In this document: piece by piece, positions 17,069-57,672 of the stretch
Layout of the letters: each line of letters begins with the position of its first letter
Numbering within the stretch: the first letter of the stretch is position 1
Assembly: GCA_021413945.1 (NCBI GenBank)
Contig: JAIOPK010000006.1
Location: 248,001 to 312,000 of the forward strand
Length of the DNA stretch: 64,000 nucleotides
Direction of reading: 5' to 3'
Source of the DNA: Candidatus Uhrbacteria bacterium
GTDB taxonomy: Bacteria > Patescibacteriota > Patescibacteriia > 2-12-FULL-60-25
Notes under the pieces: model-generated
The model's input: the letters and a program-made list of their open reading frames with translations, nothing else
Databases searched by the model: none
Told to the model about the DNA's origin: nothing
Made by a program: the position numbers and the translations under genes

Positions 17069-17179
17069 GGGGGCGTTTCCCATAGGAAAAAATGCCCTGC
17101 GGAACTCGCCGGTGTCTTGGTATTAATCAAGGTCGGCTCAGACAGTCCTCGGACATTTTTTCCTATGGGAAACGCCCCT
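17069..17179 (+). repeat. Structured repeat family, copy A
   Basis: A 25-bp perfect outer stem (17070-17094 with 17154-17178; it contains GGGGCGTTTCCCATAGG and an A6/T6 tract) encloses the conserved core. The core has CCTGCGGAACTCG at about 17096 and CTCAGACAGTCCTCGG at about 17137. Between them an inner hairpin is closed by CCG/CGG, with CTTG/CAAG inside. The copy sits between two divergent genes, upstream of gyrB. The outer stem sequence is unlike the other three copies but is self-complementary. Confidence 0.9.
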
Positions 17180-17223
17180 ATTTGAGGCTTGACATGGGGC
17201 TGGATAGAGCCAAGATTTCATGC

Positions 17224-17229
17224 TATTAT
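17224..17229 (+). promoter_or_regulatory. Extended -10 box (TGC TATTAT) of gyrB
   Basis: TGCTATTAT ends 13 nt before the gyrB ATG. No Shine-Dalgarno site lies between, so the leader would be about 6 nt. A TTGACA at 17190 is about 29 bp away, too far to act as the -35 of this box. Confidence 0.55.
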
Positions 17230-17242
17230 CTTGTTGACTTTT

Positions 17243-19282
17243 ATGGCTAAAAAAGAAGTAAAGGGGAAGATTACGAACGCCTACGGCGCAGAACAAATCT
17301 CCGTTCTGGAAGGGTTGGAACCGGTACGCAAGCGTCCCGGCATGTACATCGGATCAACGGGTCCGGATGGATTATTTCATTTGCTTCGTGAAATTGCCGA
17401 TAACTCATTCGATGAGGCGATGGCCGGACATGCGGATGAAATCATCGTTACGCTTTTGCCGGATGATTACGTGTCCGTATTTGACAATGGTCGCGGTATT
17501 CCGGTTGATAAGCATCCAAAAACAAAAGTTTCCGCGTTGGAAACAGTCATGACCGTGCTTCATGCCGGAGGTAAATTTGGAGGCGAGGATTCCGGTTATA
17601 AAATTTCCGGCGGTTTGCACGGCGTCGGAGCATCCGTCGTGAATGCTCTTTCAGAGCAGTTGGAAGTGATTGTCGAGCGTGATGGCGGGATGTATAAGCA
17701 GGAGTATTCTCGCGGAAAGCCTAAGGGTGATGTGAAAAAAGTCGGGACAAGTAAACGTCATGGCACGACGATTATTTTTAAACCGGACACCACGATTTTT
17801 ACGGAAGGTACGCGATTTGATTATCAGCGCGTGGTCGACCACTATCGTCAGCAATGTTATTTGACCAAGGGGATCAAGCTCATTGCTATCGATGAGCGAG
17901 AGAAAGGCCAGCACGATGCGTACGCGTTTTATTTTGAAGGCGGTGTCGCTTCCTACGTGCGCCATCTCAACCACAAGAAACAGCCAAAGCACGAGAATAT
18001 TTTCTTTGTCGAGAAACAAGTCGATAAAGCGGAAGTCTCCATCGGTTTGCAGTACACGGACGATTATACGGAAACGTTGTACGCATTCACCAACAACATC
18101 ATCAACCCGGAAGGCGGTACGCATGTGCAGGGATTCCGTGCCGCGTTGACGCGCGTATTGAATACGTATGCTCGAACCAAGGGCTATTTGAAAGAGAAGG
18201 ATGACAATTTGTCGGGCGATGATGTTCGTGAAGGCATGACGGCCGTTATCTCGATTCGCTATCCGGAACCGCAATTTGAAGGGCAGACCAAAGGAAAACT
18301 GGGAACGCCGGAAGTGCGCGGAGCGACGGAAACCGTGATGGGCGAGGCGCTCGCGATGTTTTTGGAGGAACATCCAAAAGATGCGGAAGCGATTCTTAGT
18401 AAATGTGTTCTGGCACAGCGTGCTCGTGCAGCCGCCCGTGCCGCCCGCGACACGGTACTACGCAAAGGCGCGTTTGAAGGCTTGACGCTTCCGGGCAAGC
18501 TTGCGGACTGCTCCAATCGCGATCCGCAAATGTGTGAGCTCTTCATCGTTGAGGGAGACTCTGCCGGAGGATCCGCAAAAATGGGACGCAATCGCGATAT
18601 CCAGGCGATTCTGCCTTTGCGCGGAAAGATTTTGAACGTGGAACGCGCGCGGCTCGACAAAATGCTGTCGAGCGAGCAGATCAAGAACTTGGTGATCGCG
18701 CTTGGAACGAATGTTGGCGAAATGTTCGACATGAGCAAGCTGCGCTATCACAAAGTCGTGATCATGACGGACGCCGACGTTGACGGAGCGCACATCCGAA
18801 CCTTGCTGCTTACGCTGTTCTATCGCTATTTCCCGGAATTGATCTTAAAGGGTCATATTTTCATCGCGCAACCGCCATTGTTCCGCGTTGCAAAAGGCAA
18901 GAATGTGAAGTACGCGTTTAGCGACGCAGAGCGCGACAAGCTCGTCGATGATCTTGCGAAGGTTCAGGAAGAAAAAGCAAAGGCAAAAAAGGGAAAGACC
19001 GAGGAGGTCGAGGAAGAGGCGGAAGTGATCGATGGGGAAGACGAGGTGGTGAAAACCGTCGGAGGTGTGGCGATCCAGCGCTACAAGGGTCTTGGTGAAA
19101 TGAATCCGGAACAGCTTTGGGAAACGACCATGGATCCGGCCGTGCGCATGATGAAGCTGGTTACGGTCGACGATGCGGAGAAGGCGAATGAGATTCTTGA
19201 TATTTTGATGGGGGCGGAAGTGGCGCCGAGAAAGAAGTTTATTCAGACGAATGCGAAGCACGTGAAAAACCTGGATGTTTAA
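17243..19282 (+). CDS. gyrB: DNA gyrase subunit B
   Basis: The 679-residue type IIA topoisomerase ATPase subunit supplies ATP-driven strand passage with GyrA. The ATG at 17243 gives the usual start (ITNAYGAEQISVLEGLEPVRKRPGMYIGS spans residues 9-37). The GHKL ATP site is visible as EIADNSFDEA, DNGRGIPVD and GGKF..... GGLHGVGASVVNALS. The TOPRIM domain has EGDSAGGSAKMGRNR, LPLRGKILNVE and MTDADVDGAHIRTLLLTLF. The C-terminal QRYKGLGEMNPEQLWETTMDP is diagnostic. A charged insertion of about 35 residues (KAKAKKGKTEEVEEEAEV) lies just before that motif. It sits between structured repeat copies A and B. Confidence 0.97.
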   Translation: MAKKEVKGKITNAYGAEQISVLEGLEPVRKRPGMYIGSTGPDGLFHLLREIADNSFDEAMAGHADEIIVTLLPDDYVSVFDNGRGIPVDKHPKTKVSALETVMTVLHAGGKFGGEDSGYKISGGLHGVGASVVNALSEQLEVIVERDGGMYKQEYSRGKPKGDVKKVGTSKRHGTTIIFKPDTTIFTEGTRFDYQRVVDHYRQQCYLTKGIKLIAIDEREKGQHDAYAFYFEGGVASYVRHLNHKKQPKHENIFFVEKQVDKAEVSIGLQYTDDYTETLYAFTNNIINPEGGTHVQGFRAALTRVLNTYARTKGYLKEKDDNLSGDDVREGMTAVISIRYPEPQFEGQTKGKLGTPEVRGATETVMGEALAMFLEEHPKDAEAILSKCVLAQRARAAARAARDTVLRKGAFEGLTLPGKLADCSNRDPQMCELFIVEGDSAGGSAKMGRNRDIQAILPLRGKILNVERARLDKMLSSEQIKNLVIALGTNVGEMFDMSKLRYHKVVIMTDADVDGAHIRTLLLTLFYRYFPELILKGHIFIAQPPLFRVAKGKNVKYAFSDAERDKLVDDLAKVQEEKAKAKKGKTEEVEEEAEVIDGEDEVVKTVGGVAIQRYKGLGEMNPEQLWETTMDPAVRMMKLVTVDDAEKANEILDILMGAEVAPRKKFIQTNAKHVKNLDV

Positions 19283-19288
19283 GCGGGT

Positions 19289-19392
19289 GATGTCGGTAAC
19301 ACAAAAAGTCTCCTGCGGAACTCGACGTCATTAAAATAATTTTTTAAGGTCGTCTCAGACAGTCCTCGGAGACTTTTTGTGCTACCGACATC
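19289..19392 (+). repeat. Structured repeat family, copy B
   Basis: The outer stem of about 22 bp with one mismatch (GATGTCGGTA..CACAAAAAGTCT with its complement) encloses CCTGCGGAACTCG (about 19312) and CTCAGACAGTCCTCGG (about 19354). The inner hairpin is closed by ACG/CGT and continued by TTAAA/TTTAA. The copy begins 6 nt after the gyrB stop. A T5 tract lies in the right arm, so it could also terminate gyrB transcription. Confidence 0.9.
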
Positions 19393-19471
19393 CTCCTTTA
19401 GGGGAGATGAGTTAGGGAGGGCTGTCCACAGAGCGTTTGTCGGACATTGGGTTTCAGGATATAAAGGATGT

Positions 19472-19801
19472 ATGAGTTTAAGACAGTCACGATTGATCGT
19501 TGAGTGCCCGCATTGTCATGCGACGTATACGGAGGCGACGGTTACGTTGGTGCGTGATGAGGGTGAGAGACGGTTATTTCATTGCGCATGTCCGACCTGC
19601 AAACGGTCGATGATTGCGCTTATTCGCGACCATGAAGGTTGGATCAGTACGATGGGGCTTGTGACCGATTTGGATGCGTCTGATGCGGTGCGTCTGGCCG
19701 GAGAGAGTCCGGTTGGGGCGGATGAATGTATTCGGGCTTATCAATATATCAGTCAACAGAGCCAAAATCTTTGTCAGGATCTGATAAAGAGCGCCACTTG
19801 A
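19472..19801 (+). CDS. Small zinc-ribbon-like protein, unknown function
   Basis: The ATG at 19472 gives 109 residues. Two CxxC pairs, CPHCHATY (residues about 12-15) and CACPTCKRS (about 43-48), form a likely zinc ribbon of about 50 residues. The rest is helical and acidic (DLDASDAVRLAGESPVGADECIRAYQYISQ). A weak AAGGA lies close to the start. It is 40 bp upstream of the L25 gene. No family name is certain; the ribbon might bind nucleic acid or serve in a protein contact. Confidence 0.6.
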   Translation: MSLRQSRLIVECPHCHATYTEATVTLVRDEGERRLFHCACPTCKRSMIALIRDHEGWISTMGLVTDLDASDAVRLAGESPVGADECIRAYQYISQQSQNLCQDLIKSAT

Positions 19802-19844
19802 CGGAATCGAGCGTTTTTCGTAAGATTCAGGCACTTTTTTTCCT

Positions 19845-20531
19845 ATGATTTACGCATTATCCGCCAAGGCCCGAACCAGCATGGGCAAGCGCGCCAAGGA
19901 TGAACTCGCCGATATGCGCGTTCCGGCCGTCATGTACGGCTCCGGCGTCACCAACCAGAATGTCTCCGTGCCTCGCTCGGAGTTCCTTAAAGTTTTCAAG
20001 CAGGCTGGTTACTCGAGCCTTGTGGATATCGCTATCGGCGATGCTTCACCGATAAAGGCTGTTATTAAAGAGGTTCAGGTTCACCCGCTTTCCATGGAGC
20101 CGATACACATCGATTTCCACCAGGTTCGCATGGACCAGGAAATGGAAGCCGTGATTCCGTTGAAGTTTATCGGCGAGTCCAATGCTGTGAAGGCCGATGC
20201 TGGTACGCTGATCAAGTCGCTCGACGAGGTCGAGGTTCGCTGTTTGCCGGCCGACTTGCCGCATGCACTTGAAATCGATTTGTCCAAGCTCGCGACATTT
20301 GAGGACTCGATTACGACTGCAGATATTAAACTGCCAAAGGGTGTTGAACTCGTAACGGTTGAGGAACTTACCATCGCTACGGTGCAGCGTCCGATGACGG
20401 AAGAAGAGTTGAAGAAACTTGAAGAGAGCCAGGTCGGAGACGTTACCGCGGTCAAGTCGGAAGCCGATCTCAAGAAGGCCGCCGATGAAGCCAAGGCCGC
20501 AGAGGAAGCCGCCGCGAAGGAAGCCAAGTAA
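19845..20531 (+). CDS. rplY: 50S ribosomal protein L25/general stress protein Ctc
   Basis: This 228-residue long-form L25 (CTC type) binds 5S rRNA in the large ribosomal subunit. The N-terminal L25 domain is clear: RTSMGKRAKDELADMRVPAVMYGSG, then EVQVHPLSMEPIHIDFHQVRMDQEMEAVIPLKFIGES. The C-terminal TL5-like domain continues to PMTEEELKKLEES. The tail is a Lys/Ala/Glu-rich extension (AADEAKAAEEAAAKEAK). Only 8 bp separate it from the next gene. No Shine-Dalgarno site precedes the ATG. Confidence 0.93.
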   Translation: MIYALSAKARTSMGKRAKDELADMRVPAVMYGSGVTNQNVSVPRSEFLKVFKQAGYSSLVDIAIGDASPIKAVIKEVQVHPLSMEPIHIDFHQVRMDQEMEAVIPLKFIGESNAVKADAGTLIKSLDEVEVRCLPADLPHALEIDLSKLATFEDSITTADIKLPKGVELVTVEELTIATVQRPMTEEELKKLEESQVGDVTAVKSEADLKKAADEAKAAEEAAAKEAK

Positions 20532-20539
20532 CTTCTCAC

Positions 20540-21622
20540 ATGAAATTGAATCCCGAACAAGTTCTGGGATACGCAAAACGGTTTCGCTGGCAGATTGCCA
20601 TCGGAACCGTTTTTGTTGTCCTGTTGTGTACGATTGTATTGTGGCTCGTGCTCTCCGGAGCAACGCGTTCTCATAACGACAAAAACAACACGGGACAGGT
20701 TTTTCAGATTCCGACATCGACGGAAGCGCTGACCGAGCGCCGTTTGGATGGTGTTTTAGTTTCTCCTTCCATCGCCACACTTGCTCCGCGCGCCGTCATG
20801 ATCGAGAATCATCCGGATGCGCGTCCGGTTTCCGGATTATCAAAAGCGTCGATCGTGATCGAGGCGCCGGTCGAAGGCGGTATCACGCGCTACATGGCGC
20901 TCTTTGCCGCTTCAACAACGTTACCCCAAGTCGGACCGGTTAGAAGCGCTCGGCCGTACTATGTCGATTGGGCCGATGCTTGGAATGCGCCGTATTTCCA
21001 TGTCGGCGGAAGCCCGGAAGCGTTGACAAAAATTTCTTCAATGGCCGGTTTTACGGATGTGAACGAGTTTGCGCAGGGGAATAGTTTTTGGCGCGACACC
21101 ACGCGATACGCTCCGCATAATGTATATACAAAGGATGAGTTGATGGATGCGGTTGTCGCCAAAAAAGGCGCGGCAAGCTCGACAGCTCCGCTTGCATGGC
21201 ATTTTCAGGATGCGGCGAGCTCGACGGATCGCGGCGAACTCGATGGACCGCGCGTTCCGTACGGCGGTTCTTTCAATGTTCGCTGGGCGTTTGAAAAGGA
21301 GCGCGGCGTGTACGTACGCAGTCTGTCGGGTGTCGAGCAGAAGGATCGCGACGGCTCGTCGATTGAATCGGAGAACGTGATCGTCATCAAAACGGAGCAG
21401 ACGATTCTCGATTCATACGGACGATTGCAAGTACGGACGACGGGCAGCGGTCAAGCGATGGCGTATCGTGACGGCAAGAAATTTAATTTAAGATGGCGCC
21501 GCTCGGCCGGCGAGCCGATTCGATTTGAGTCAACGGACGGAACGGAATTCTTGTTTACACGCGGTCGGACGTGGATCGAAGTGACGACGAGCGATGTGAT
21601 CTTTGGCGGAGTCGGCGGTTAG
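20540..21622 (+). CDS. DUF3048 (YerB-like) membrane-anchored protein
   Basis: One membrane segment at residues about 16-36 (IAIGTVFVVLLCTIVLWLVL) anchors a 310-residue outer part. That part has the DUF3048 signature: RAVMIENHPDARPVSGLSKASIVIEAPVEGGITRYMALF, then VGPVRSARPYYVDWADAWNAPYFHVGGSP. The C-terminal half has the second DUF3048 subdomain (AMAYRDGKKFNLRWRRSAGEPIRF ... RTWIEV). Function is unknown in all bacteria; a cell-wall role is suspected. It follows rplY closely and its stop overlaps the end of prmC (convergent) by 4 bp. Confidence 0.85.
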   Translation: MKLNPEQVLGYAKRFRWQIAIGTVFVVLLCTIVLWLVLSGATRSHNDKNNTGQVFQIPTSTEALTERRLDGVLVSPSIATLAPRAVMIENHPDARPVSGLSKASIVIEAPVEGGITRYMALFAASTTLPQVGPVRSARPYYVDWADAWNAPYFHVGGSPEALTKISSMAGFTDVNEFAQGNSFWRDTTRYAPHNVYTKDELMDAVVAKKGAASSTAPLAWHFQDAASSTDRGELDGPRVPYGGSFNVRWAFEKERGVYVRSLSGVEQKDRDGSSIESENVIVIKTEQTILDSYGRLQVRTTGSGQAMAYRDGKKFNLRWRRSAGEPIRFESTDGTEFLFTRGRTWIEVTTSDVIFGGVGG

Positions 21623-22488
21623 TCGTTGTTTGCGACTTCGAGAATTCTGTCGCGGCCACATCGATCTTGATGGATGCGGATGGTCGCGTCGGGGAAAAAG
21701 CTTCGGGCATAGTCCCGGAGTTTTTTTGCTTGCGGAGGATCGAGTTCGAGTAAAATGAGTCTGGGTTCGTACAGGCTCGCTTGAATGAGGAGCTCTTCAT
21801 TCAGCGATCGACCGTCATTGGGTGCAAACAGTGCCCGCTTTGGTTCATAAGCTGTCACACTTTTTGGCATGCGGAGCTTGTCTGCGATCGGGAGGTAGGG
21901 GAGATTCGCGAGCACGACGAGTGGGTTTTTGTTGGCGATGTGGTCGATAACCGTCGGATGCACGAGGTTGCCTCTAGCAAACTGTATGTTTGCCCCCAGT
22001 ATTTTGGCATTTTTTTTGGCGACAGAAAGGGCGCGAAGCGATACGTCGCTTGCGATCACGTTGGCGTTTGGATGTTCAAGCGCGATGGTTACGGCAATAG
22101 CTCCGGAACCGGTTCCGATATCAACAATGGTCGGTTGACGCATATGCTCGAGCCGGCGGAGGGCGAGCTCGACCAAGTCTTCCGTCTCCGGACGGGGGAT
22201 GAGGACGCGTTTATCGACGTAAAAGTCTCTCCCAAAGAAGGGAGCGGAGCCGAGGAGATAGGCGAGAGGCTCATCGCGGAGACGGCGGCGAAGCAATCGA
22301 TTGAGTTTCCAGGTTTGGATCGTTGTCAGGGCAGAATCGCCGTGAGCAATGAGCCATGAGCGATCTTGGTTAAGAGCTTTTGCTGCAATCCAGCACATGT
22401 CCTGATGGGCGATTTCTTTATCTTTAATGACCTTCGCCAAACGCTTTTCAGCTTTGGTGAGCCATTGGTCCAAGGTCAGGGTCGTCAT
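21619..22488 (-). CDS. prmC: Peptide chain release factor N5-glutamine methyltransferase
   Basis: PrmC/HemK methylates the GGQ glutamine of release factors using S-adenosylmethionine. The 289-residue protein has the N-terminal helical domain (residues 1-75, ending RRRLRDEPLAYLLGSAPFFGRDFYVDKRVLIPRPETEDLVE, which is the family hallmark). The SAM site is IVDIGTGSGAIAVTIALEHPNANVIASDVS. The catalytic motif is NLPYLP rather than the common NPPY; Asn and Tyr are kept. It is convergent with the DUF3048 gene. The start gives a good N terminus; no ribosome site is visible. Confidence 0.93.
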   Translation of the reverse strand: MTTLTLDQWLTKAEKRLAKVIKDKEIAHQDMCWIAAKALNQDRSWLIAHGDSALTTIQTWKLNRLLRRRLRDEPLAYLLGSAPFFGRDFYVDKRVLIPRPETEDLVELALRRLEHMRQPTIVDIGTGSGAIAVTIALEHPNANVIASDVSLRALSVAKKNAKILGANIQFARGNLVHPTVIDHIANKNPLVVLANLPYLPIADKLRMPKSVTAYEPKRALFAPNDGRSLNEELLIQASLYEPRLILLELDPPQAKKLRDYARSFFPDATIRIHQDRCGRDRILEVANND

Positions 22489-22489
22489 C

Positions 22490-22518
22490 TTGCCAAATTC
22501 TACTCGATTCCGTATTAT
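22490..22518 (+). promoter_or_regulatory. Promoter of tRNA-Val
   Basis: TTGCCA and TATTAT are separated by exactly 17 bp, with the -10 box ending 14 nt before the tRNA. The -35 is identical to that of the tRNA-Gly promoter. Confidence 0.7.
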
Positions 22519-22532
22519 TCCGCTACATTCGC

Positions 22533-22609: not shown

Positions 22610-22614
22610 TCGAG

Positions 22615-22638: not shown

Positions 22639-22654
22639 GTTGTACCATTACGTT

Positions 22655-34312: not shown

Positions 34313-34906
34313 ATGATGAAAATATACGGAACGAAACAGAGTAGTGCATCGCGTTGTTATTGGGCTGCGGCGGAAGCGGGCGTTGAATTGGAAAACGTGC
34401 CTCTCGATTTCCAAAAACAGGAGCACAAGTCCGAGGCATTTCTCAAGCTCAATCCGAATGGAAAAGTGCCGACGCTCGTCGACGGCGATGTCGTGATTTG
34501 GGAATCGATGGCGATCAATAATTACATTCTTGAGAAGCATAAGCCGGAATTGTTTGGAGAGATGGACGCGGGATCGCATGCGCTTCTGCTGCAGTGGAGC
34601 TATTGGTCGCTCGCGCATCTTCAAAAGGCGATCGAGCCGTTGTATATGCAAAAGTGGATAGGACCGATGTCTGCAGAAGGTGTCGAGGCGGCAAAAGCGG
34701 ATTCGACCAAATGGCTCACGATTCTCGATAAACATCTTGAAGGCCGCGAGTATATTGTCGGAAAAACGTTTACCATCGCCGATATCAATGTCGGATCTGT
34801 CGCGTTTTCCGGTAAAGATCATATCGACTACAACGCGTTCCCAAACGTTTCCCGATGGCTCGCCGCGCTCGCTCAGCGTCCGGCATATCAACAGGTTTAC
34901 GGCTAA
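34313..34906 (+). CDS. Glutathione S-transferase family protein
   Basis: The 197-residue protein has a thioredoxin-like N domain (MKIYGTKQSSASRCYWAAAEAGVELENVPLDF, LKLNPNGKVPTLVDGDVVIWESMAINNYI with the ES motif for the glutathione gamma-Glu) and the all-helical C domain (EYIVGKTFTIADINVGSVAF, matching the 'G...SiADi' N-cap). The catalytic Ser/Tyr would be in the SSASRC segment. GST genes are unusual in reduced CPR genomes, which generally lack glutathione synthesis. ATG 34316 is an equally possible start. It shares TAATG with the next gene. Confidence 0.85.
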   Translation: MMKIYGTKQSSASRCYWAAAEAGVELENVPLDFQKQEHKSEAFLKLNPNGKVPTLVDGDVVIWESMAINNYILEKHKPELFGEMDAGSHALLLQWSYWSLAHLQKAIEPLYMQKWIGPMSAEGVEAAKADSTKWLTILDKHLEGREYIVGKTFTIADINVGSVAFSGKDHIDYNAFPNVSRWLAALAQRPAYQQVYG

Positions 34907-35445
34907 TGATCATCGAGATTCGTCGACGTGCGTATCAGCGTACCATTCGAATCTCGGTAAAACCGGGCGGGCATGTGCTTGTTACCGCTGGCAAGCATGT
35001 GCCCGCTTTTATGATTGACGGGTATATCAAGCATCATCAAGCGTGGATTGATAAGACGGTCGACAAGCTCAAAATGGTTCCGGTTTCTATTTTGCGGCAG
35101 CAGGATCCGGAGGAATTCAAACGGTTGAAAAAAACCGCGTTGAAATTTGCGGAAGAGCGGCTCGAGCACTTTAATCGGATCTATCAATTCCGATGGACAC
35201 GTGTTTCGATTCGTCGGACCAAGACGCAGTGGGGGAGCTGTTCCAAATCCGGGACGCTGGCATTTAATTATAAGCTCCTTCTCGTACCGCCGGAGTTGGC
35301 CGACTATGTGATCGTGCATGAGCTGTGCCACTTGGCCGTTTTTAACCATTCGGCGAAGTTTTGGAAGGAAGTCGAACGAGCAATTCCGGATTGGCGTCGA
35401 CGTCGAGTTGCACTTAGAAAGGTTGGGAATGGGAGCTTGGGGTAG
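34906..35445 (+). CDS. YgjP-like metallopeptidase (DUF45, M48 superfamily)
   Basis: The ATG at 34906 overlaps the GST stop (TAATG), giving 179 residues. The zinc-binding HELCHLAVFNHSAKFW (HExxH with a third His) follows the family motif RRTKTQWGSCSKSGTLAFNYKLLLVPPELADYVIVHELCH. The N-terminal 60 residues are beta-rich as in YgjP/SprT-like proteins. Zinc hydrolase activity is expected; the substrate is not known. The stop codon lies in the left arm of structured repeat copy C. Confidence 0.88.
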   Translation: MIIEIRRRAYQRTIRISVKPGGHVLVTAGKHVPAFMIDGYIKHHQAWIDKTVDKLKMVPVSILRQQDPEEFKRLKKTALKFAEERLEHFNRIYQFRWTRVSIRRTKTQWGSCSKSGTLAFNYKLLLVPPELADYVIVHELCHLAVFNHSAKFWKEVERAIPDWRRRRVALRKVGNGSLG

Positions 35446-35548
35446 GATTCCGCAATACAAAAACACGCCTGCGGAACTCGTCGTCGATTTCTTGTTCTTC
35501 AAGGTCGACTCAGACAGTCCTCGGCGTGTTTTTGTATTGCGGAATCCT
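35444..35548 (+). repeat. Structured repeat family, copy C
   Basis: The outer stem is a perfect 26-bp inverted repeat (AGGATTCCGCAATACAAAAA plus CACGCC and its complement). The core carries CCTGCGGAACTCG (about 35468) and CTCAGACAGTCCTCGG (about 35509). The inner hairpin is closed by TCG/CGA with CTTG/CAAG inside. It overlaps the stop codon of the metallopeptidase gene, and separates it from the convergent helicase remnant. A T5 run lies in the right arm. Confidence 0.9.
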
Positions 35549-42803: not shown

Positions 42804-43778
42804 ATGCGTTCCTATCGATTGATTGCAGGTTTTGCTCTGATCGCCCTACTGGGCGCCGGTTGCGATTGGAGTTCCCTACCGCTCGTCGGGCGTTTTGCGT
42901 CGCCGGTATCGACATCGACAATTTCTTTTGGAAGCACGCCGATAGATGCGGCCAAGGCGATTCAATTCCTTCCCGGCGATACATTCGAGGTACGTCAGAC
43001 GGTTTTTGGGTTCGGCGCATTCTTGCCCGATCTGCTTGGAAGCAAGGACGGCGTACGAATGGTGACGGTGACGCGTTTTGCGCCGTCGAATTTTGCCAAC
43101 GTTTCTTGGACCGTGACGTCGGAAAAAGAAACCGACGCATCGATCAAGGCACGACAAGCTTATGAAAAGGATGTTGAGCAGAATCCGCGTGCGATCGGCG
43201 AGAAGGTTGCGGTTCCTCCTGTGCCGCAAATGGAGCGCGTGACGGCGAGCGGAACGGTGATGGATGCGTCGCTGAAAACTCCCCATAGCGCGTATTTGCC
43301 CGCCTACTGGAGCCCGGGAGTAAATAATTTAATGAATGAGAAGAGCGCGATCTGGCTTTCAGAGGATGCGTTCATGGAATTAGTACGCACGCGCCACACG
43401 ATATTGAATCTTGGTATCTTTGATTCCGAGGCCAATCAAGCCGCGCGCAATATTACGGATTTGAAGGGCGCGCTCGATCGTCTGCGTAAGCAGGCAAATG
43501 AAGACGGTAAGTTCAAGGATTTGACCTTGCTCGAGGCGGAACCGGATTTCATCGAGTATCCACTGGAGGTAAATGGCCGAACCGTGACCGTATCGGCGAT
43601 CAAGGCAAAGAATTGGTTCGGGGAAGTCATCGTGCTCAACAGCGCGCAAAATCCGATGATTCTCAAAGTGACAATGAATCCGCTGGCATCAAGCGCAAGC
43701 GATGCACTTGGAGGGAATATTGCATTGCTCGACAAGCTGTACGGATACGAAATCAGCAACATCCAACTACGCAGATAA
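42804..43778 (+). CDS. Lipoprotein of unknown function
   Basis: A signal peptide with lipobox LLGAGC puts the lipid-modified Cys at residue 20. The mature 300 residues are of mixed structure (GDTFEVRQTVFGFGAFLPDL, RLRKQANEDGKFKDLTLLEAEPDFIEYPLEVNGRTVTVSAIKAKNWFGEVIVLNSAQNPMI). No family is recognised. A GATAGT lies 8 nt before the ATG, again leaving no leader. A good terminator follows. Confidence 0.65.
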   Translation: MRSYRLIAGFALIALLGAGCDWSSLPLVGRFASPVSTSTISFGSTPIDAAKAIQFLPGDTFEVRQTVFGFGAFLPDLLGSKDGVRMVTVTRFAPSNFANVSWTVTSEKETDASIKARQAYEKDVEQNPRAIGEKVAVPPVPQMERVTASGTVMDASLKTPHSAYLPAYWSPGVNNLMNEKSAIWLSEDAFMELVRTRHTILNLGIFDSEANQAARNITDLKGALDRLRKQANEDGKFKDLTLLEAEPDFIEYPLEVNGRTVTVSAIKAKNWFGEVIVLNSAQNPMILKVTMNPLASSASDALGGNIALLDKLYGYEISNIQLRR

Positions 43779-43780
43779 GC

Positions 43781-43813
43781 AAAACTTCTCCGCCGTGGCG
43801 GAGAAGTTTTTTT
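43781..43813. terminator. Bidirectional terminator after the lipoprotein gene
   Basis: The stem AAAACTTCTCCGCC / GGCGGAGAAGTTTT has a very short loop and is followed by TTTTT. It also ends the convergent gene at 43812. Confidence 0.9.
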
Positions 43814-44630
43814 ATTCGGCGGCTTCGGAATGTAGTTTTCCGATTTTGCTCAAGTTCACTTCATAGCGCTGAAAGTAGAGCTGATCTCTGATCATACGCC
43901 AGGCTTTGATGCGTTCCGAGAGATCGGCGGTTTTCCCTTCCAGTTTCACGCCGGGGTTTTCCGGCCAGGGCTGCTGTTCTTCTTTGAGAGCATTGAGGAA
44001 TTCTTCCCAATCGTGCTCGAGGGCGCCTTCGACATATCGTATCGCCGGTTCCGCGTCTTTTCCGATGGCATGGAATCCGTCGATGGCCTCGAGGACTTCC
44101 TTGATCCCATTCAGGTCCGGATCGATCTTTTCCGCTTCTTTCTCGAGCCCTGATTCTGTCAGCATCGCATGCCGCATCGAGTGGTCTTGATGGAAGAGCT
44201 CGGCTTTTTCCTTTGTTTTTTCCAAGGCGACTTTACTGTCAGTGCGTTCATGTTTCATCCAGCTTGAGGCGCGGATGATTTGGCGGATTTCATCGATGCG
44301 TTTTTCATCGTGGGATTCTCGTGCGGCCATGAGTTCATCGAGCAAAACGGGTTCCACATCCCAGCTATTGCATCGAAAGAAGTCTTTGCAGAGCTGTTCG
44401 CGGTTTTTTGGTTGAGGGACGCGTGTCTCGTAGTACGGCTCGACATCCTCCGGACGAGGCTTGGAAAGGTGGGCGATGACATTTTGTAAATCCATCATGC
44501 GCTCCGCCTGGGCGCCAAGATTTTTTTCGTATTCGATAACACGGCGCTTATTTTCCTCTAATGCGCTTTTGTCGCGTGCTTGTTGTACGCGATGATAGGG
44601 TTTTTCAAAAGGATTGCTACGGGGTTTCAT
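43812..44630 (-). CDS. Charged helical hypothetical protein downstream of era
   Basis: The ATG at 44630 overlaps the era stop (ATGA), giving 272 residues. The protein is highly charged and helical (DKSALEENKRRVIEYEKNLGAQAERMMDL) and contains no membrane segment. It has similarities in style to the proteins at 30601 and 25288 but no recognisable domain. Translational coupling to era suggests a linked expression level. Confidence 0.5.
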   Translation of the reverse strand: MKPRSNPFEKPYHRVQQARDKSALEENKRRVIEYEKNLGAQAERMMDLQNVIAHLSKPRPEDVEPYYETRVPQPKNREQLCKDFFRCNSWDVEPVLLDELMAARESHDEKRIDEIRQIIRASSWMKHERTDSKVALEKTKEKAELFHQDHSMRHAMLTESGLEKEAEKIDPDLNGIKEVLEAIDGFHAIGKDAEPAIRYVEGALEHDWEEFLNALKEEQQPWPENPGVKLEGKTADLSERIKAWRMIRDQLYFQRYEVNLSKIGKLHSEAAE

Positions 44631-50916: not shown

Positions 50917-52550
50917 TCACTTGGTTTAAAAAGATGTGGAACGGGGAAACGGACGGGCTTACGGCCGCGGCGCTTATTGTTGGCGCGTCCTCGCTTGCTT
51001 CGCGCCTGCTCGGCTTGGTACGCGACCGTGTTTTGGCCGGGACCTTTGGCGCAGGTTCATCGCTTGATGCGTATTACGCCGCGTTCCGTCTGCCGGACAC
51101 GGTGTACAACCTGCTGATTCTTGGCGCGATTTCCGCCGGATTTATTCCGGTGTTTACGGAATATCTTGAAACAAAGGGGAAGGAATCGGCGGCTAAACTT
51201 GCCGCGCAGGTTCTGACGACCGTCGGCGCCTGTGTCGCGGTGGCGAGCGCGCTTGTCGCCGTGTTTGCTCCTGTGATCATGCCGCTCATCGTCCCCGGAT
51301 TTGATGCGGAGACGCTTCAGAAGACGATCGAGCTTACGCGTGTCATGTCGGTTTCGCCGCTATTGCTCGGACTCTCGGCCGTGATCGGCGGGGTCATGCA
51401 GTCGATGAAGCGCTATGTCGGTTTTGCGCTGGCTCCCGTATTTTATAATTTTGGGATTATCGTCGGTACGATCGTGCTCTCGCCGACGATGGGTATTATG
51501 GGCGCGGCCATCGGGGTTGTGGCCGGCGCGTTCATGCACTTTTTGGTGCAGGCATCGACCTTGCCGGCGTTTCCACTCGGGAAATTGCCGTGGCCGTCTT
51601 TTTCCTCGGCTGGTGTACGTCGCATTCTCGCGTTGATGGGTCCGCGCACGGCGGCGCTGGGGATTTCCCAGGTTAACTTAGTGTTCTTGCTTGCGCTTGC
51701 GACGACGATCGAGCCGGGTGCGGTTTCTGTTTTCAATTTGGCCAATAACTTGCAGATGTTTCCGGTCGGCTTGATCGGCATCTCGTTTGCGATTGCCGCG
51801 TTTCCCTCGCTCGCCAAAGCGCATGCGATCGAGGATGATGAAGGGTATCGCCATGCGCTCTCGGCTGCGGCGCGTAAAATTATCTTTTTAATTATTCCGG
51901 CGATGGCTGTTTTTATTTTATTGCGCGCGCAAATCGTCCGCCTCGCGCTTGGTGCCGGTGAATTCAACTGGAATGACACGATTCGTACGGCGGATGCGCT
52001 GGCGTGGTTTGCCGTTTCGCTGGTGGCGCAATCCCTTGTTCCGCTCCTTGCCCGCGCGTTTTATGCGTTGCAGGACACATGGACACCGTTTTGGATCAGC
52101 ATCATTTCCGAGGCGGTGATTATTGGTTTGGCGATTGTGCTCCGCGAGCCGTTTGGCGTGATGGGTTTGGCGATGGCGTTTTCCGCCGCGGCCATCGTTC
52201 AATGTTTGTTGCTCGGTTTGTTCTTGCGGAGAATGTTCGGACAGCTTGGAAAAGGAGAGACACTCATCTCCACCTATAAGACGTCGATCGCGACGGTCGC
52301 CTTGTGTACAGCTGCGTTTCCCGTCCGCCAGTGGCTCGGTACGATTTATAACCTTGAGGCGACATGGCAGGTGGTGCTTCAAGCGAGCGGAACCCTGGTT
52401 GCCGGCGGCCTCGCGTTTTTTGTCACGGCTTGGCTCGTCCGTTCTCCGGAGCTGGTCGAGTTCCGCATGGCTGCGGAAAAGCGCTTATTCAAAAAGGCTC
52501 GACTGGTTGAGGGCGCGGAAGAGGCGAGCGGGATGGCCAAGACCCATTGA
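50913..52550 (+). CDS. murJ: Lipid II flippase MurJ
   Basis: The 545-residue membrane protein has about 14 helices and the MviN/MurJ signatures: ALIVGASSLASRLLGLVRDRVLAGTFGAGSSLDAYYAAFRLPDTVYNLLILGAISAGFIPVF at the N terminus, then PLLLGLSAVIGGVMQSMKRYVGFALAPVFYN. It flips lipid II for peptidoglycan synthesis, matching RodA elsewhere in the window. The ATGA overlap with the Rieske gene is noted. A private orphan gene follows. Confidence 0.94.
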   Translation: MITWFKKMWNGETDGLTAAALIVGASSLASRLLGLVRDRVLAGTFGAGSSLDAYYAAFRLPDTVYNLLILGAISAGFIPVFTEYLETKGKESAAKLAAQVLTTVGACVAVASALVAVFAPVIMPLIVPGFDAETLQKTIELTRVMSVSPLLLGLSAVIGGVMQSMKRYVGFALAPVFYNFGIIVGTIVLSPTMGIMGAAIGVVAGAFMHFLVQASTLPAFPLGKLPWPSFSSAGVRRILALMGPRTAALGISQVNLVFLLALATTIEPGAVSVFNLANNLQMFPVGLIGISFAIAAFPSLAKAHAIEDDEGYRHALSAAARKIIFLIIPAMAVFILLRAQIVRLALGAGEFNWNDTIRTADALAWFAVSLVAQSLVPLLARAFYALQDTWTPFWISIISEAVIIGLAIVLREPFGVMGLAMAFSAAAIVQCLLLGLFLRRMFGQLGKGETLISTYKTSIATVALCTAAFPVRQWLGTIYNLEATWQVVLQASGTLVAGGLAFFVTAWLVRSPELVEFRMAAEKRLFKKARLVEGAEEASGMAKTH

Positions 52551-52602
52551 CAGCCGAGCAATAATTTGATTCTATCTCTAGGTCCTGATGTGGAGGCTCA
52601 CC

Positions 52603-52908
52603 ATGCTCGAGCGCCAGTCAACGTCAAGATCCGCGGCCTTTCATCGCCATTACCCGAGGCGTATCAGCTATTCGACGCTTCTGCGCGAGATCTTCAAGCG
52701 CATCGAGGATCCGTGCGAAGCTCAGAAGCTCGTCGATCTCATCCGCTGTCACGGAGTTCCTGGCAAATGGGTGGTCGGTATCTATTTCAAGGGCGAGGAA
52801 CGCGTCGTCTTTCCCCGGTCCGATCGGGTCTGCCGGGATTACAATGAGGGTTTTGCCCAGCTACTGGTCTGGCTGCGGCACCGCAACTTCCAGCCCTTCG
52901 ACTCCTAG
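52603..52908 (+). CDS. Orphan-class small protein with strong ribosome site
   Basis: ATG 52603 is chosen because GTGGAGG lies 6-7 nt upstream; 52588 is also open. The 101-residue basic, soluble protein (RISYSTLLREIFKRIEDPCEAQKLVDLIRCHGVPGKWVVGIYFKGEERVVF) shows no recognised family. Codons are largely C-ending and a private terminator follows. Confidence 0.6.
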   Translation: MLERQSTSRSAAFHRHYPRRISYSTLLREIFKRIEDPCEAQKLVDLIRCHGVPGKWVVGIYFKGEERVVFPRSDRVCRDYNEGFAQLLVWLRHRNFQPFDS

Positions 52909-52916
52909 TCTCGGTT

Positions 52917-52949
52917 ACGCCCGTCCTCTCTGGACGGGCGTTCGATTTT
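52917..52949 (+). terminator. Terminator of the orphan gene at 52603
   Basis: ACGCCCGTCC pairs with GGACGGGCGT across a 5-nt loop and is followed by TCGATTTTCC. Confidence 0.85.
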
Positions 52950-52967
52950 CCGCTAGATTTACGCCCA

Positions 52968-54773
52968 ATGGAACAGTCTCGAATCAGAAATTTTTGCATC
53001 ATCGCCCATATCGACCACGGCAAGTCCACGCTTGCCGATCGTTTGCTTGAAATTACCGGCACCATCGAGAAGCGCAAGATGAAGGAGCAATTGCTCGACA
53101 CAATGGATTTGGAGCGCGAGCGCGGGATTACGATCAAGCTTCAGCCGGCGCGCATGTCGTACAAGGCAAAAGATGGGACGGAGTACGAGCTGAATCTTAT
53201 CGACACGCCGGGACATGTCGACTTTACGTACGAAGTATCTCGATCACTCGCCGCCGTGGAAGGTGCGGTCTTGCTGGTCGATTCGACGCAAGGCGTGCAG
53301 GCGCAGACCATCGCGAATTTGTATTTGGCGATTGAACAAAATCTGACGATTATTCCGGTGCTGAACAAGATCGACTTGCCGAACTCGGATGTGGAGCGGC
53401 GAGCGGCGGAATTAATGCAGCTCATCGGCTGTAAGCGCGAGGAGATTTTGTCGGCTTCCGGAAAGTCGGGCGAGGGCGTGCTTGAAATTCTTGAACGTGT
53501 CGTGAAGGAAGTGCCTCCGCCGCAGGGTTCTCGCGAAAAGCCGTTTCGCGCTATGATATTTGATTCCAAATATGACGACTATCAGGGCGTGGTCGCGTAT
53601 ATCCGTTGCATCGACGGTCACATCGAGAAAAATAGCGGAGTAGCGTTTAAGGCGACATCGGCCGTCGGATCGGCTTTGGATATCGGGTACATGAATCCGC
53701 AGCATTTTTCCAGCGGGCACATGGAAGCCGGGGATATTGGATATCTGGTGACAGGCTTGAAAGATATCGGCGCGGTGCGCGTCGGTGATACGGTTGTGAG
53801 TGCGGGACAGGCGGCCGAGACGGAAATGCTACCGGGTTATAAAGAGGTGCGCCCAATGGTGTATGCGGGACTTTTTCCGCAAGAAGGAAATGAGTACGAG
53901 AAACTCCGCGATGCGATTTTGAAATTGAAATTGAATGATGCGGCGCTGACATTCGAACCCGAACATTCGATCGCTCTCGGATTTGGTTTCCGCGTTGGTT
54001 TGCTCGGCATGCTGCATTTGGAAATTGTGCAGGAACGTCTCTCACGCGAATTTAATATGGATGTTGTCATCACGACGCCATCTGTGGGATATGAAGTGAC
54101 ATTGACGGACGGGACGGAAGTTTCGGTCAAATCTCCGGGCGGTTTTCCGGATCCTTCGCGTATCGATACGACCCGCGAACCATGGGCCCGCGTCGATATT
54201 TTGTCGCCCAAGGAGTATCTCGGGAATGTGATGGCATTGGTTCAGGATCGACGCGGTATTTATAAGAATACGGAGTATCTTGATACGACGCGCGCGCTAC
54301 TGCATTATGAAATGCCGTTGGCGTCCGTCATTGTCGATTTTTATGACAAGCTGAAAGGCGTGACGGCCGGATACGCTTCATTGAACTACGACTTCATGGA
54401 TTTCCGCGATTCGGACATCGTGAAACTGACGATCAACGTGGCGGATGAACCGGTCGAGGCGTTGGCGACGTTGCTCCATACGAGCGAGGCACAGCGACGA
54501 GGAAAAGAAATCGTCGAGACGCTGAAAGAGGAATTGCCTCGTCAGCAATTCGTCATCAAATTGCAGGCATCCGTCGGCGCCAAGATTATCGCTTCGGAAA
54601 AGATTTCCGCCTTCCGTAAGGATGTGACGGGGTATTTGTACGGAGGCGATGTTACGCGTAAAATGAAATTGCTGGAGAAGCAGAAGAAAGGAAAGAAGCG
54701 CATGCTTGCCCATGGAAAAGGCTCGGTAGAGATTCCGCCGGATGCGTTTATCAAAGTGTTGAGACGCGGGTAA
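52968..54773 (+). CDS. lepA: Elongation factor 4 (LepA)
   Basis: The 601-residue translational GTPase has G1 AHIDHGKST, G2 in ERERGITI, G3 DTPGH and G4 NKID. The LepA-specific C-terminal domain is present (DFMDFRDSDIVKLTINVADEPVEALATLLHTSEAQRRGKEIVETLKEELPRQQF) and the end GGDVTRKMKLLEKQKKGKKRMLAHGKGSVEIPPDAFIKVLR is characteristic. It can back-translocate ribosomes or aid 30S biogenesis. A TAGATT stands 8 nt before the ATG, with no ribosome site. Confidence 0.96.
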   Translation: MEQSRIRNFCIIAHIDHGKSTLADRLLEITGTIEKRKMKEQLLDTMDLERERGITIKLQPARMSYKAKDGTEYELNLIDTPGHVDFTYEVSRSLAAVEGAVLLVDSTQGVQAQTIANLYLAIEQNLTIIPVLNKIDLPNSDVERRAAELMQLIGCKREEILSASGKSGEGVLEILERVVKEVPPPQGSREKPFRAMIFDSKYDDYQGVVAYIRCIDGHIEKNSGVAFKATSAVGSALDIGYMNPQHFSSGHMEAGDIGYLVTGLKDIGAVRVGDTVVSAGQAAETEMLPGYKEVRPMVYAGLFPQEGNEYEKLRDAILKLKLNDAALTFEPEHSIALGFGFRVGLLGMLHLEIVQERLSREFNMDVVITTPSVGYEVTLTDGTEVSVKSPGGFPDPSRIDTTREPWARVDILSPKEYLGNVMALVQDRRGIYKNTEYLDTTRALLHYEMPLASVIVDFYDKLKGVTAGYASLNYDFMDFRDSDIVKLTINVADEPVEALATLLHTSEAQRRGKEIVETLKEELPRQQFVIKLQASVGAKIIASEKISAFRKDVTGYLYGGDVTRKMKLLEKQKKGKKRMLAHGKGSVEIPPDAFIKVLRRG

Positions 54774-54799
54774 ACCACCCTTGATGTTTATTGAAATAT

Positions 54800-54898
54800 A
54801 TGATACCTAAACGTGGCCACTCACTGATGGTGAAAGTGTTTGCGGGATTCATGGTCTTTGCAACCATTTTGTTCCTGGTGGGACCGTTTCTAAGTTAA
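54800..54898 (+). CDS. Very small membrane protein after lepA
   Basis: A 32-residue frame, ATG 54800 to TAA 54898, translates as MIPKRGHSLMVKVFAGFMVF followed by ATILFLVGPFLS. It has a basic N terminus and one membrane helix of about 18 residues. It is shorter than standard gene-calling limits. Supported by the sensible signal layout and its place in a gap of about 130 bp. No family is known to me; its function is unknown. Confidence 0.5.
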   Translation: MIPKRGHSLMVKVFAGFMVFATILFLVGPFLS

Positions 54899-54906
54899 GG
54901 AGGTGA
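54897..54906 (+). promoter_or_regulatory. Perfect Shine-Dalgarno site
   Basis: AAGGAGGTGA is a full-length complement to the 16S rRNA 3' end. It decides the GTG at 54909 as start of the following gene and overlaps the stop of the small membrane protein. Confidence 0.75.
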
Positions 54907-54908
54907 AC

Positions 54909-55088
54909 GTGAGCCCTGATCGAACGACCGAACTCTTTTGCGACGAGGAAGTAGTAGAGCCGCGGCAAGACCGCCGCTATCCCGCTTGGTGGAAGCCGAG
55001 CAGGTTCGACGGCGTTCTCTCCCGACAGGAGCTCGCCGAGATGGCGAATGCCGACGCGCGCTTCCTCGACGAGGAGGCGGCGACATGA
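54909..55088 (+). CDS. Orphan-class small acidic protein
   Basis: The GTG at 54909 gives 59 residues (MSPDRTTELFCDEEVVEPRQ ... NADARFLDEEAAT); 54903 is a second possible GTG. It is acidic, with no recognised motif. The gene overlaps the next one (ATGA), forming a two-gene orphan operon with a shared terminator. Confidence 0.6.
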   Translation: MSPDRTTELFCDEEVVEPRQDRRYPAWWKPSRFDGVLSRQELAEMANADARFLDEEAAT

Positions 55089-55357
55089 TCGATGACCCCA
55101 TCGTTCCACAGATGCGCCTCATCATGCGCGAGCGCGTGATCAAGTACGAGCAGGATCTCCGATCCGACCAGTCGTACTGCCAGCCGTCACAGATCATCGA
55201 CCGGGAGAATGTCCCGCTCAATCTCGGCGACTACACCGACGAGCAGATCGATCGGATCATCAGGCTCGAGCGCGAGGTGGCCGCCCAAGCCGTCGGGTTG
55301 GAGCTGAGCTCCGAGACGCTGCTGTCACGCGCCCTCCAGCGCTACATCCTCGGCTAG
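55085..55357 (+). CDS. Orphan-class small helical protein
   Basis: The ATG at 55085 overlaps the previous stop (ATGA). The 90-residue protein (MRLIMRERVIKYEQDLRSDQ ... IIRLEREVAAQAVGLELSSETLLSRALQRYILG) is helical and charged. No family is recognised. The GC-rich codons and terminator match the other orphan-class genes. Confidence 0.6.
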   Translation: MIDDPIVPQMRLIMRERVIKYEQDLRSDQSYCQPSQIIDRENVPLNLGDYTDEQIDRIIRLEREVAAQAVGLELSSETLLSRALQRYILG

Positions 55358-55367
55358 ACTGAATGCA

Positions 55368-55410
55368 ACCCCGTCCCGACGAACTGTCGGGACGGGGTCT
55401 TGATTTTTAT
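55368..55410 (+). terminator. Terminator of the two-gene orphan operon
   Basis: A perfect 13-bp stem ACCCCGTCCCGAC / GTCGGGACGGGGT with loop GAACT is followed by CTTGATTTTTATC. Confidence 0.9.
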
Positions 55411-55448
55411 CTTCCGTGAGGCGTGTTGGATTGCGACAATGCAGCCTC

Positions 55449-57170
55449 ATGGAAAAGCGATGGCGCGTGGCGGAATCGTGTCCGCCGGAATTTGTCCAAA
55501 TAATCGGTCAACCGATTGTGGCGCAGTTGTTGTGGAACCGTGGGATTCGCGAGCGCTCCGACGCGGACGCGTTTTTGACGCCGTCTTGGGAGGAAAATAT
55601 TCACGATGCGCTTCAGTTTCGACAAATGGAGGGCGCGGTCGTCCGCACGTTCGATGCTTTGGAAAAAGGCGAGCGCATCACCGTGCATGGCGATTATGAC
55701 GCGGATGGGGTGACGGGATCGACGTTGCTTATTACGGTTTTGAATGACATAGCGAAGAAGACAGGGAGCAAGGCGCCTATCGATTATTATATTCCGCATC
55801 GCGATAAGGAGGGATATGGATTGCGGAAAGAAACGGTACCGATTTTGAAGGAGCGCGGGACATCGTTGATCATTACCGTCGACTGTGGAATTGCGTGTGT
55901 CGATGAGATTGCGCTGGCGAAAATCGACGGGATCGATACGATTGTTGTCGACCACCATACCTTTGGCGAAACGGTTCCCGATGGGCATTTGATTCATCCG
56001 GGTTTGCCGGAGGAGACGTATCCGTTCAAGCATCTTGCAGCTGTTGGAGTCGCTTACAAGTTTGCGACCGCTTTATTGTCTCGAGCCCGTGAACGCGGAC
56101 TCGATTATCCGGAGGGTTGGGAGAAGTGGCTGCTCGACTTGGTCGCGATTGCGACGGTGACGGATATGGTTCCACTGGTCGGCGAGAATCGTGTCCTTGA
56201 GACGTTTGGGCTGACGGTTTTGAATAAGACGCGGAGGCCGGGGTTGCTGGCTTTATTTGAAATGGCGGGTGTTGAGCCGGGGTCGATTACTTCGGAGACG
56301 ATTGGGTTTGGGATTGGCCCGCGAATTAATGCGGCGGGCAGAATGGATCATGCGACGGTGGCGCTTCGGCTTCTGCTTTCCGAATCGATGGATGAAGCGC
56401 GGCTTATTGCGAGAGAGCTCGAGGATTTAAACAAAGCGCGACAGGATGCAACAAAGAAGATGATGGTTGAAGCCGAGAAGATCGTAGGCGATGACGTGAA
56501 AGACAATGTGATTGTAGTTTGGAAGGAGAATTGGTCACCGGCGCTGGTCGGTTTGGTCGCCGGGAGATTCATGGAGAAGTTTAGTCGACCGGTGATCGCT
56601 GTTGGGAAGCATGGGGATCATTGGATCGGATCGGGACGGTCGATATCGACTTATAATATTACGGATGCGGTTAAGGCGGCGGGGGAGGGGATTCTGACGC
56701 GGAGCGGAGGGCATGTGCAGGCGTGTGGGTTTGCGTTGAATGATGGGGAACGATTGCCGGAGTTTCAGTCGCGGCTTGTCGAGCATGCGTCCTCGATCAC
56801 GAGCGATGAGCTGGTACCGTTACTGTCGATCGATGCGGAAATTACCTTGGCCGGCGTAGCGATGGATGTCGCAGAAGGAGTGAAGCGACTTGAACCGTAT
56901 GGGATGGGGAATCCGTTGCCGATTTTTTTGTCGAAGCGATGCAAAATTCTTTCATCGGATACGATGGGGGCGACGGGGAATCATTTGAGGCTGCAGGTTG
57001 CGGATGGGTCAGGTCGTGCGGTGAAAGCGGTTGGATTTAAGATGGGGAGCAGGATTTTGGAGGCAATGATGGGGAAAGAGATTGATATCGTGTATAATCT
57101 TTCGATAAACGAGTGGAATGGTAGGAGAACGGCGGAATGTCGATTAATTGATTTTAGACCATGCACGTAA
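55449..57170 (+). CDS. recJ: Single-strand DNA-specific exonuclease RecJ
   Basis: The ATG at 55449 gives 573 residues. DHH-family motifs are HGDYDADGVTGST (motif I), ITVDCGIACVDEI (II), VVDHHTFGETVP (III) and TVTDMVPLVGENR (IV). The DHHA1 domain has SGGHVQACGFAL with the GGH signature. RecJ digests 5'-ended single strands in mismatch and recombination repair. It overlaps rnhA by 10 bp. Confidence 0.95.
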   Translation: MEKRWRVAESCPPEFVQIIGQPIVAQLLWNRGIRERSDADAFLTPSWEENIHDALQFRQMEGAVVRTFDALEKGERITVHGDYDADGVTGSTLLITVLNDIAKKTGSKAPIDYYIPHRDKEGYGLRKETVPILKERGTSLIITVDCGIACVDEIALAKIDGIDTIVVDHHTFGETVPDGHLIHPGLPEETYPFKHLAAVGVAYKFATALLSRARERGLDYPEGWEKWLLDLVAIATVTDMVPLVGENRVLETFGLTVLNKTRRPGLLALFEMAGVEPGSITSETIGFGIGPRINAAGRMDHATVALRLLLSESMDEARLIARELEDLNKARQDATKKMMVEAEKIVGDDVKDNVIVVWKENWSPALVGLVAGRFMEKFSRPVIAVGKHGDHWIGSGRSISTYNITDAVKAAGEGILTRSGGHVQACGFALNDGERLPEFQSRLVEHASSITSDELVPLLSIDAEITLAGVAMDVAEGVKRLEPYGMGNPLPIFLSKRCKILSSDTMGATGNHLRLQVADGSGRAVKAVGFKMGSRILEAMMGKEIDIVYNLSINEWNGRRTAECRLIDFRPCT

Positions 57171-57580
57171 TTATCCGCACCGATGGGGGCGCTCGAGGAA
57201 ATCCGGGACCGGCGGGTATTGGTGTTGTTGTTGAAAACGACAAAGGAAAGGTTCTTGAAGAACATGCAAAGTTTCTTGGAGTGAAGACCAATAATCAAGC
57301 CGAGTATGAGGCGGTGATTTTAGGTCTGCAACGTGCTAAGCACTTGAAAGCCGACTCTGTCGAAGTATTAGCGGACAGCGAGTTGGTGGTTAAGCAGGCT
57401 ACCGGCGAATATAAAGTGAAACACGTGAATATTAAGCCTCTTTTTGCGCAGTTGCAGGATTTGGTGCGTCAGATTGGATCGGTGAAGTTCAAGCATGTGA
57501 GACGGGCGGAAAATGAGCATGCGGATGCGCTATCGAACAAGGCTATGGATGAGGGGAGTGGGCGACGCGAGGCGTACTGA
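57161..57580 (+). CDS. Ribonuclease HI family protein
   Basis: The 139-residue RNase H fold protein has catalytic carboxylates in IRTDGGARGNPGPAGIGVVV (D), NNQAEYEAVILGL (E), VLADSELVVKQ (D) and RAENEHADALSNKAMD (D). It removes RNA from RNA-DNA hybrids. Its length fits the cyanobacterial/archaeal RNase HI (RnhA-like) group. The last seven codons, GSGRREAY-stop region, lie inside the left arm of structured repeat copy D. Confidence 0.92.
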   Translation: MHVIIRTDGGARGNPGPAGIGVVVENDKGKVLEEHAKFLGVKTNNQAEYEAVILGLQRAKHLKADSVEVLADSELVVKQATGEYKVKHVNIKPLFAQLQDLVRQIGSVKFKHVRRAENEHADALSNKAMDEGSGRREAY

Positions 57581-57672
57581 TTTCGGGCCTGCGGAACTCG
57601 TCGTCAATCTTTGTTTTCTGTGGACGACTCAGACAGTCCTCGGCCCTACATCAGCACGCCTCGCGTCGCCCA
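57559..57672 (+). repeat. Structured repeat family, copy D
   Basis: The outer stem has a perfect 17-bp outer part (TGGGCGACGCGAGGCGT and its complement), a bulged CTGAT/ATCAG part and GGGCC/GGCCC next to the core. The core has CCTGCGGAACTCG (about 57588) and CTCAGACAGTCCTCGG (about 57628). The inner hairpin is closed by TCGTC/GACGA. Unlike copies A-C it has no T tract. Its left arm overlaps the coding end and stop of the RNase H gene. Confidence 0.9.

Follow-up and report, generated by a model that had tools for sequence, protein, structure and literature searches.

The window analysed here, a stretch of 64,000 nucleotides from a Candidatus Uhrbacteria genome of the CPR (Patescibacteria), raises the question of what kind of element keeps an invariant core while the long self-complementary arms around it change from copy to copy. 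Four copies, A to D, lie on the plus strand, and both boxes of the core are present without mismatch in each, as the first-pass annotation of this DNA had reported. Copy A (17069–17179) is located between a divergent ORF on the minus strand (16172–17083) and gyrB on the plus strand; its arms (17070–17097 and 17151–17178) are 96% complementary, and it carries box 1, CCTGCGGAACTCG, at 17096–17108 and box 2, CTCAGACAGTCCTCGG, at 17137–17152. Copy B (19289–19392) starts 6 nt past the gyrB stop codon, with arms at 19289–19313 and 19368–19392 (96% complementary) and boxes at 19312–19324 and 19354–19369. The left arm of copy C (35444–35548) starts within the stop codon of the ORF at 34855–35445; here the arms (35444–35469 and 35523–35548) are 100% complementary and the boxes occupy 35468–35480 and 35509–35524. 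Copy D (57558–57673) includes in its left arm the final 23 nt of an RNase H-like ORF (57161–57580), and has arms at 57558–57589 and 57642–57673 (91% complementary) with boxes at 57588–57600 and 57628–57643. The near-perfect arms of the four copies are about 25–32 bp long. The boxes are 28, 29, 28 and 27 nt apart in copies A to D, matching the 27–29 nt given initially, and the inner stem is closed by C-G, A-T, T-A and T-A, respectively, with an invariant CG/CG next to it, again as described. Folded as single-stranded DNA, the four copies have z-scores of −7.7 to −11.2 against shuffled sequence. The window also contains two long terminator-like hairpins with a T tract and no core, at 10084–10160 (37 nt arms, 76% complementary) and 43770–43821 (25 nt arms, 80% complementary).

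A search for further copies, put forward as a check on the original four, found more of them: 8 in the genome, every one of them on the plus strand of a single contig of 563,635 bases, and 53 stretches in a species-level genome collection. The element is about 105–115 bp in size, with a stem of 24–27 bp and a loop of 50–58 nt in this genome. Counting palindromes whose arms have 14 or more perfect bases and whose spacer is 14 or longer, 8 of the 10 found over the first 452 kb of the contig are this element. When the 8 genomic copies were aligned, 97.5% of the cells were paired and compensatory changes were found in 22 of the 26 outer pairs, which bears out the claim that pairing is kept despite sequence change; the covariation value was 0.70, against 0.15 for shuffles and at most 0.14 for slid controls. 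The arms indeed change between copies, but the statement that they differ entirely was too strong, since an A5/T5 tract is common to 7 of the 8 copies. This tract lies 6–10 nt from the core in A, B, C and four other copies, and in B and C the neighbouring bases beside it are common to both as well. The proposed core helix with one bulged A (GG-A-ACT/AGT-CC) is constant in all 8 copies. Among the 91 copies counted, 86 have GG/CC, four (all Proteobacterial) have a compensated GC/GC and one has GG/CT with a G-T wobble, and the broken C form was seen in none. The element consists of an invariant core, whose two boxes enclose a variable inner stem-loop, and of long self-complementary arms, and it occurs in multiple dispersed copies. 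The initial sequence observation is confirmed, although understated in scope, and the structural reading is right.

In the Uhrbacteria-like family the arm ends at 24–27 nt in 32 of 36 intact copies, and in the CPR genus of genomes G015 and G031 the pairing persists for about 25 nt before falling to chance level or below, with left-arm sequence information near zero past 9 nt. Identical 39-nt cores carry unrelated, near-perfect arms, and the likeness of outer arms among paralogs is near chance expectation. Pairing is bimodal, with most copies at 19–21 of 21 and a tail at 7–16. No other source of the arms was found in the genomic DNA examined, for which reason capture of the arms from elsewhere in the genome was rejected. 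Where two species have a copy at the orthologous site, the arms are in some cases inherited and in decay, and in others perfect in both species yet different. This indicates that the arms are renewed somehow and later are not under strong selection, whereas the core is kept. The pairing need not reflect selection on RNA, because arms at orthologous sites may be perfect, decayed or completely renewed; the covariation on which the first-pass annotation based its argument for structural selection is real, but selection on an RNA is not implied by it. Renewed arms are not universal, since the Spirochaete and Myxococcota copies have arms that are common within a genome. At two loci of the Myxococcota genome Prado146 (L038 4481–4523 and L057 1050–1092) the core has no left arm and directly abuts unrelated sequence, which at L057 is the terminal part of a proline-dehydrogenase-like ORF.

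The 53 stretches all carry the two-box pattern exactly, with its 29 fixed bases; they come from a one-genome-per-species collection and represent at least eight phyla, with carriers among Myxococcota, Spirochaetes, Beta- and Gammaproteobacteria, Lachnospiraceae, Coriobacteriales, Omnitrophica, Elusimicrobia and several CPR lineages. The calculated chance expectation for such a pattern is below 0.001 matches in 257 billion bases. Two of the exact-core carriers, HTCC5015 and Niveibacterium sp. 24ML, are isolates, and contamination of metagenome bins thus cannot account for the spread. The distribution over these phyla is patchy: an exact copy is rare among relatives (7 of 57) and genomes of the phylum (6 of 380), it was absent from both sister species in the search of relatives, and Rickettsia was not among the exact-core matches in the species-level genome collection. 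Carriage as plasmid or phage cargo was rejected, because plasmid and phage records gave no match over most of the core and only two IMG/VR contigs carry it; among the matches listed from a relaxed IMG/VR scan, most were chance. A known RNA family was likewise rejected, as the element has no match in Rfam, in line with the earlier remark that no named RNA with this core was known. In the window, only tRNAs reached the Rfam gathering score, and the weak matches at E up to 10 were chance hairpins. A literature search for the core strings returned nothing relevant.

Variants of the core occur as well. A sister core, CTGCGGGGCTCG..CTCGAACA..TCCTCG, was found in the genus to which G015 and G031 belong: G015 has 23 copies, on contig G015:C3, and the examined part of G031 has 12, on G031:C1. 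It is more numerous than the first core there and was absent from the examined contig of the window's genome, and some orthologous sites have the first core in one species and the second in the other. A third variant, whose inner hairpin CACCCCGC(T/C)GCTCGCGAGCGGCGGGG is larger and GC-rich, lies at G031:C1 290457 and ~575930 and at G015:C3 ~1126650. In Beta- and Gammaproteobacteria a second palindrome, which has related boxes CCCTGCGnnGCTCG of its own, carries the core at its tip, and the two IMG/VR contigs have the same arrangement. Loci L012, L040 and L062 contain variant cores CTGCGCAACTCG..CAGTGCTCG, compensated from G-C to C-G, inside the same outer Proteobacterial palindrome.

Copies are usually found just past stop codons, and several left arms extend 10–23 nt into the upstream gene; others lie within genes. 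The recJ gene of G404 contains two copies, in sense and in-frame, encoding LPAELATLRQSSATE, by which RecJ gains a net 22 and 19 residues (~66 and 57 nt) relative to its orthologs, and both inserts are missing in all 13 aligned orthologs. One antisense copy is present in dnaE, encoding the DNA polymerase III alpha subunit, in a loop of variable length; because this loop ranges from 11 to 26 residues across species, the length of the DnaE insert does not separate the models. A further copy is inside an uncharacterised radical-SAM-like ORF. Empty or element-free counterparts were found in relatives. Sister species G001 has no hairpin between the same promoters as at the site of copy A, and a counterpart of copy B is absent downstream of gyrB in both G001 and G002. 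The window's rnhA ORF ends GSGRREAY* in the left arm of copy D, while that of G002, where the element is missing, ends GMGR*. The counterpart of the occupied site G031:556367, at G015:836684, has neither arm, and the ancestral state in this comparison could be either. No target-site duplication was seen. About half of the alignable sites have copies common to two species (flanks ~80% identical), and their nearly unchanged cores suggest retained function or homogenisation. Relatives differ by occupied and empty sites, and in-frame gene insertions exist; together with the distribution, these point to a mobile element.

In the CPR family studied, the orientation of the copies follows the replication strand. 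Three of its genomes together have 59 copies, counting the two core types, and 58 of these are on the G-rich strand, which by the usual convention would be the lagging-strand template. Transcription does not set this orientation, as the upstream gene is on the opposite strand for 19 of the 59 copies and both neighbours are for 8 of them, the single exception to the G-rich-strand rule being among these 8. Just upstream of the arms, GGG is present in 84% of left flanks versus 17% of the background, and this G-tract preference may contribute in part to the strand bias. Outside CPR, no strand bias was observed (24 of 46). The flanks in G015 and G031 have a G-tract before the left arm and a nearly C-free purine-rich stretch after the right arm, whatever the gene orientation. 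Strong GC skew (~0.1–0.18) is confined to part of the chromosomes on G015:C3 and G031:C1 (loci L121–L240); most copies of these two genomes are in the skewed part, and the remainder examined (e.g. 1–560 kb of G015) is almost without skew.

We consider that the copies are probably mobile DNA elements of one family, non-autonomous and hairpin-forming, which work like REP and RPE palindromes. An enzyme supplied in trans would recognise the single-stranded hairpin formed by the core, chiefly on the lagging-strand template; for such lagging-strand targeting, IS608 and ISDra2 are precedents (PMC6006769). Copies would be placed where harm is small, such as just past stops and in variable protein loops. 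Fold-back copying with a template switch, at the time of insertion or later, may then produce the matched, locus-specific arms, the weakest step of the scheme, which would account for identical cores with unrelated perfect arms; once formed, the palindrome would be free to decay. A precedent for this second step is that, in E. coli, fold-back template switching at quasipalindromes shows a strand bias (PMC6357072). A more novel form of this proposal, which is possible but doubtful, holds that the core is the only conserved unit and that, at each insertion, fold-back copying at the replication fork turns arbitrary sequence into a fresh perfect palindrome of fixed length (~25 nt per arm). To our knowledge, no described transposon uses such replication-coupled movement. 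Left arms that reach into genes, and RecJ inserts of 66 and 57 nt where 59 nt were predicted, had led to the idea that inverted copying of the host left flank always yields the right arm; G015:836684, with neither arm, and the rnhA of G002, which ends before most of arm D, argue against it, and it is kept only within the replication-fork fold-back reading. A linked transposase, as in an autonomous transposon, was rejected, as no mobile gene family recurs among the 122 ORFs neighbouring copies; a parental IS, as for a MITE, may exist elsewhere in the genomes. Several observations speak against the scheme as a whole: no Y1 transposase in four carrier genomes, no recurrent mobile gene beside the copies, no target-site duplication, nearly unchanged cores in the copies common to two species, a strand bias that is not seen outside CPR and may in part reflect G-tracts, and arms that are common within a genome in Spirochaetes and Myxococcota.

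Other explanations have to be weighed against the mobile palindrome. A functional structured RNA, one of the options first listed, or an intrinsic terminator at gene 3′ ends, maintained by selection on pairing, would agree with the frequent location of copies at most tens of nt away from a stop codon, with the A5 and T5 tracts that make copies A, B and C look like bidirectional terminators, and with the very strong covariation and the many sites common to two species. Both are nevertheless unlikely in plain form, because orientation in the CPR family tracks GC skew rather than transcription, even in copies with both neighbours opposite, the genes on either side of copy A are divergent, and other copies occur in-frame in recJ and antisense in dnaE. 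An intrinsic terminator would combine a GC-rich stem with a T tract downstream and share the orientation of its upstream gene; the T tract of A, B and C is lacking in D, the pairing goes far past this tract, and the element has no Rfam match and is absent from the sister species. A core that alone inserts into loops of pre-existing hairpins, in the way group IIC introns do with terminators, was also among the first proposals. The nested Beta- and Gammaproteobacterial and IMG/VR copies are what it predicts, and so are arms unrelated between copies, but it does not hold in general and we regard it as quite unlikely: the RecJ orthologs and the sister gyrB flanks lack a hairpin, and the relatives, in which empty sites with only the outer hairpin were expected, have none at the recJ, gyrB and G015:836684 counterparts. 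The net RecJ inserts of ~66 and 57 nt also exceed the roughly 34-nt core.

The recombinase substrate first suggested may still apply, as a kind of mobile or recombination hairpin. Integron attC sites fold into single-strand hairpins with variable stems, the form in which they are recognised, and carry the R″ and R′ boxes RYYYAAC and GTTRRRY. An attC-like recombination site, with cleavage at the 5′ edge of the core and exchange of left flanks, would explain why the left flank is swapped at or near the core edge, with the right arm retained, at L038, L057, G031:566987 and G031:440161, although assembly error is possible for the Myxococcota MAG; a strand bias is also expected of a single-strand substrate. 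Its probability is very low all the same, since the boxes of the element are CTGCGGAACTCG and CTCAGACAGTCCTCG rather than the attC motifs, cassettes and cassette arrays are missing, and the copies are spaced tens of kb apart and dispersed over hundreds of kb.

The mobile-palindrome reading can be set against known repeats. The element resembles the Rickettsia palindromic elements (Ogata et al. 2000, 2002, cited in PMC10969869) in being palindromic, dispersed, ~100–150 bp long and in-frame in housekeeping genes with no encoded transposase; palindromes of this size lie within the RecJ (two copies), DnaE and radical-SAM-like ORFs. Unlike them, it has an invariant core with unrelated arms, is exact across phyla and is strand-biased in CPR, a comparison made by description for RPEs other than RPE-4 and RPE-6. 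Those two are CGTC repeats (PMC3733652), which have a CGTC (or TGTC/CCTC) tag, an 8–9 bp stem and a 4–5 nt loop and likewise lack a dedicated transposase. REPs and RPEs occur near gene 3′ ends and some in replication or repair genes, e.g. DnaE of R. conorii (Di Nocera et al. 2013, PMC3733652). The element shares with the GTAG and CGTC REP super-families the hairpin form, the occurrence in many phyla and the location at 3′ ends of genes and inside replication and repair genes, here DnaE and RecJ. However, REPs are 20–40 bp with conserved stems and an unpaired tetranucleotide at one end (PMC3733652), whereas the element exceeds 100 bp, its conserved part is central, and its locus-specific ends have no common tag of the GTAG or CGTC kind; its stem and loop are also far from the CGTC type. 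REP/RAYT membership was rejected, as Y1_Tnp (RAYT, PF01797) is absent from the element-positive genomes G000, G014, G015 and G034. Recognition of single-stranded hairpins with preference for the lagging-strand template, as in IS200/IS605 members IS608 and ISDra2 (PMC6006769), would yield the strand bias of the element, which differs in the missing Y1 transposase of these four carriers, in having no known cleavage motif and in that no autonomous copy was found. We would class it as a small palindromic mobile repeat that is not a REP, RPE, attC or Rfam member, the RPE families other than RPE-4 and RPE-6 having been compared by description.

How REP-like palindromes that lack a transposase, such as the CGTC REPs and RPEs, spread is an open problem. 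The exact core across phyla, the occupied and empty sites, the fixed arm length and the strand bias make this question testable on a defined core of 39–57 nt, and the copies in-frame inside RecJ and in a replicative polymerase are new cases of such insertions. If true, the core-only fold-back reading would represent a replication-coupled mode of moving. A palindrome TGTCATTGCGAGGA at G015:C3:320102 (locus L137), in the same CPR genome as the element, resembles the published CGTC REP type.
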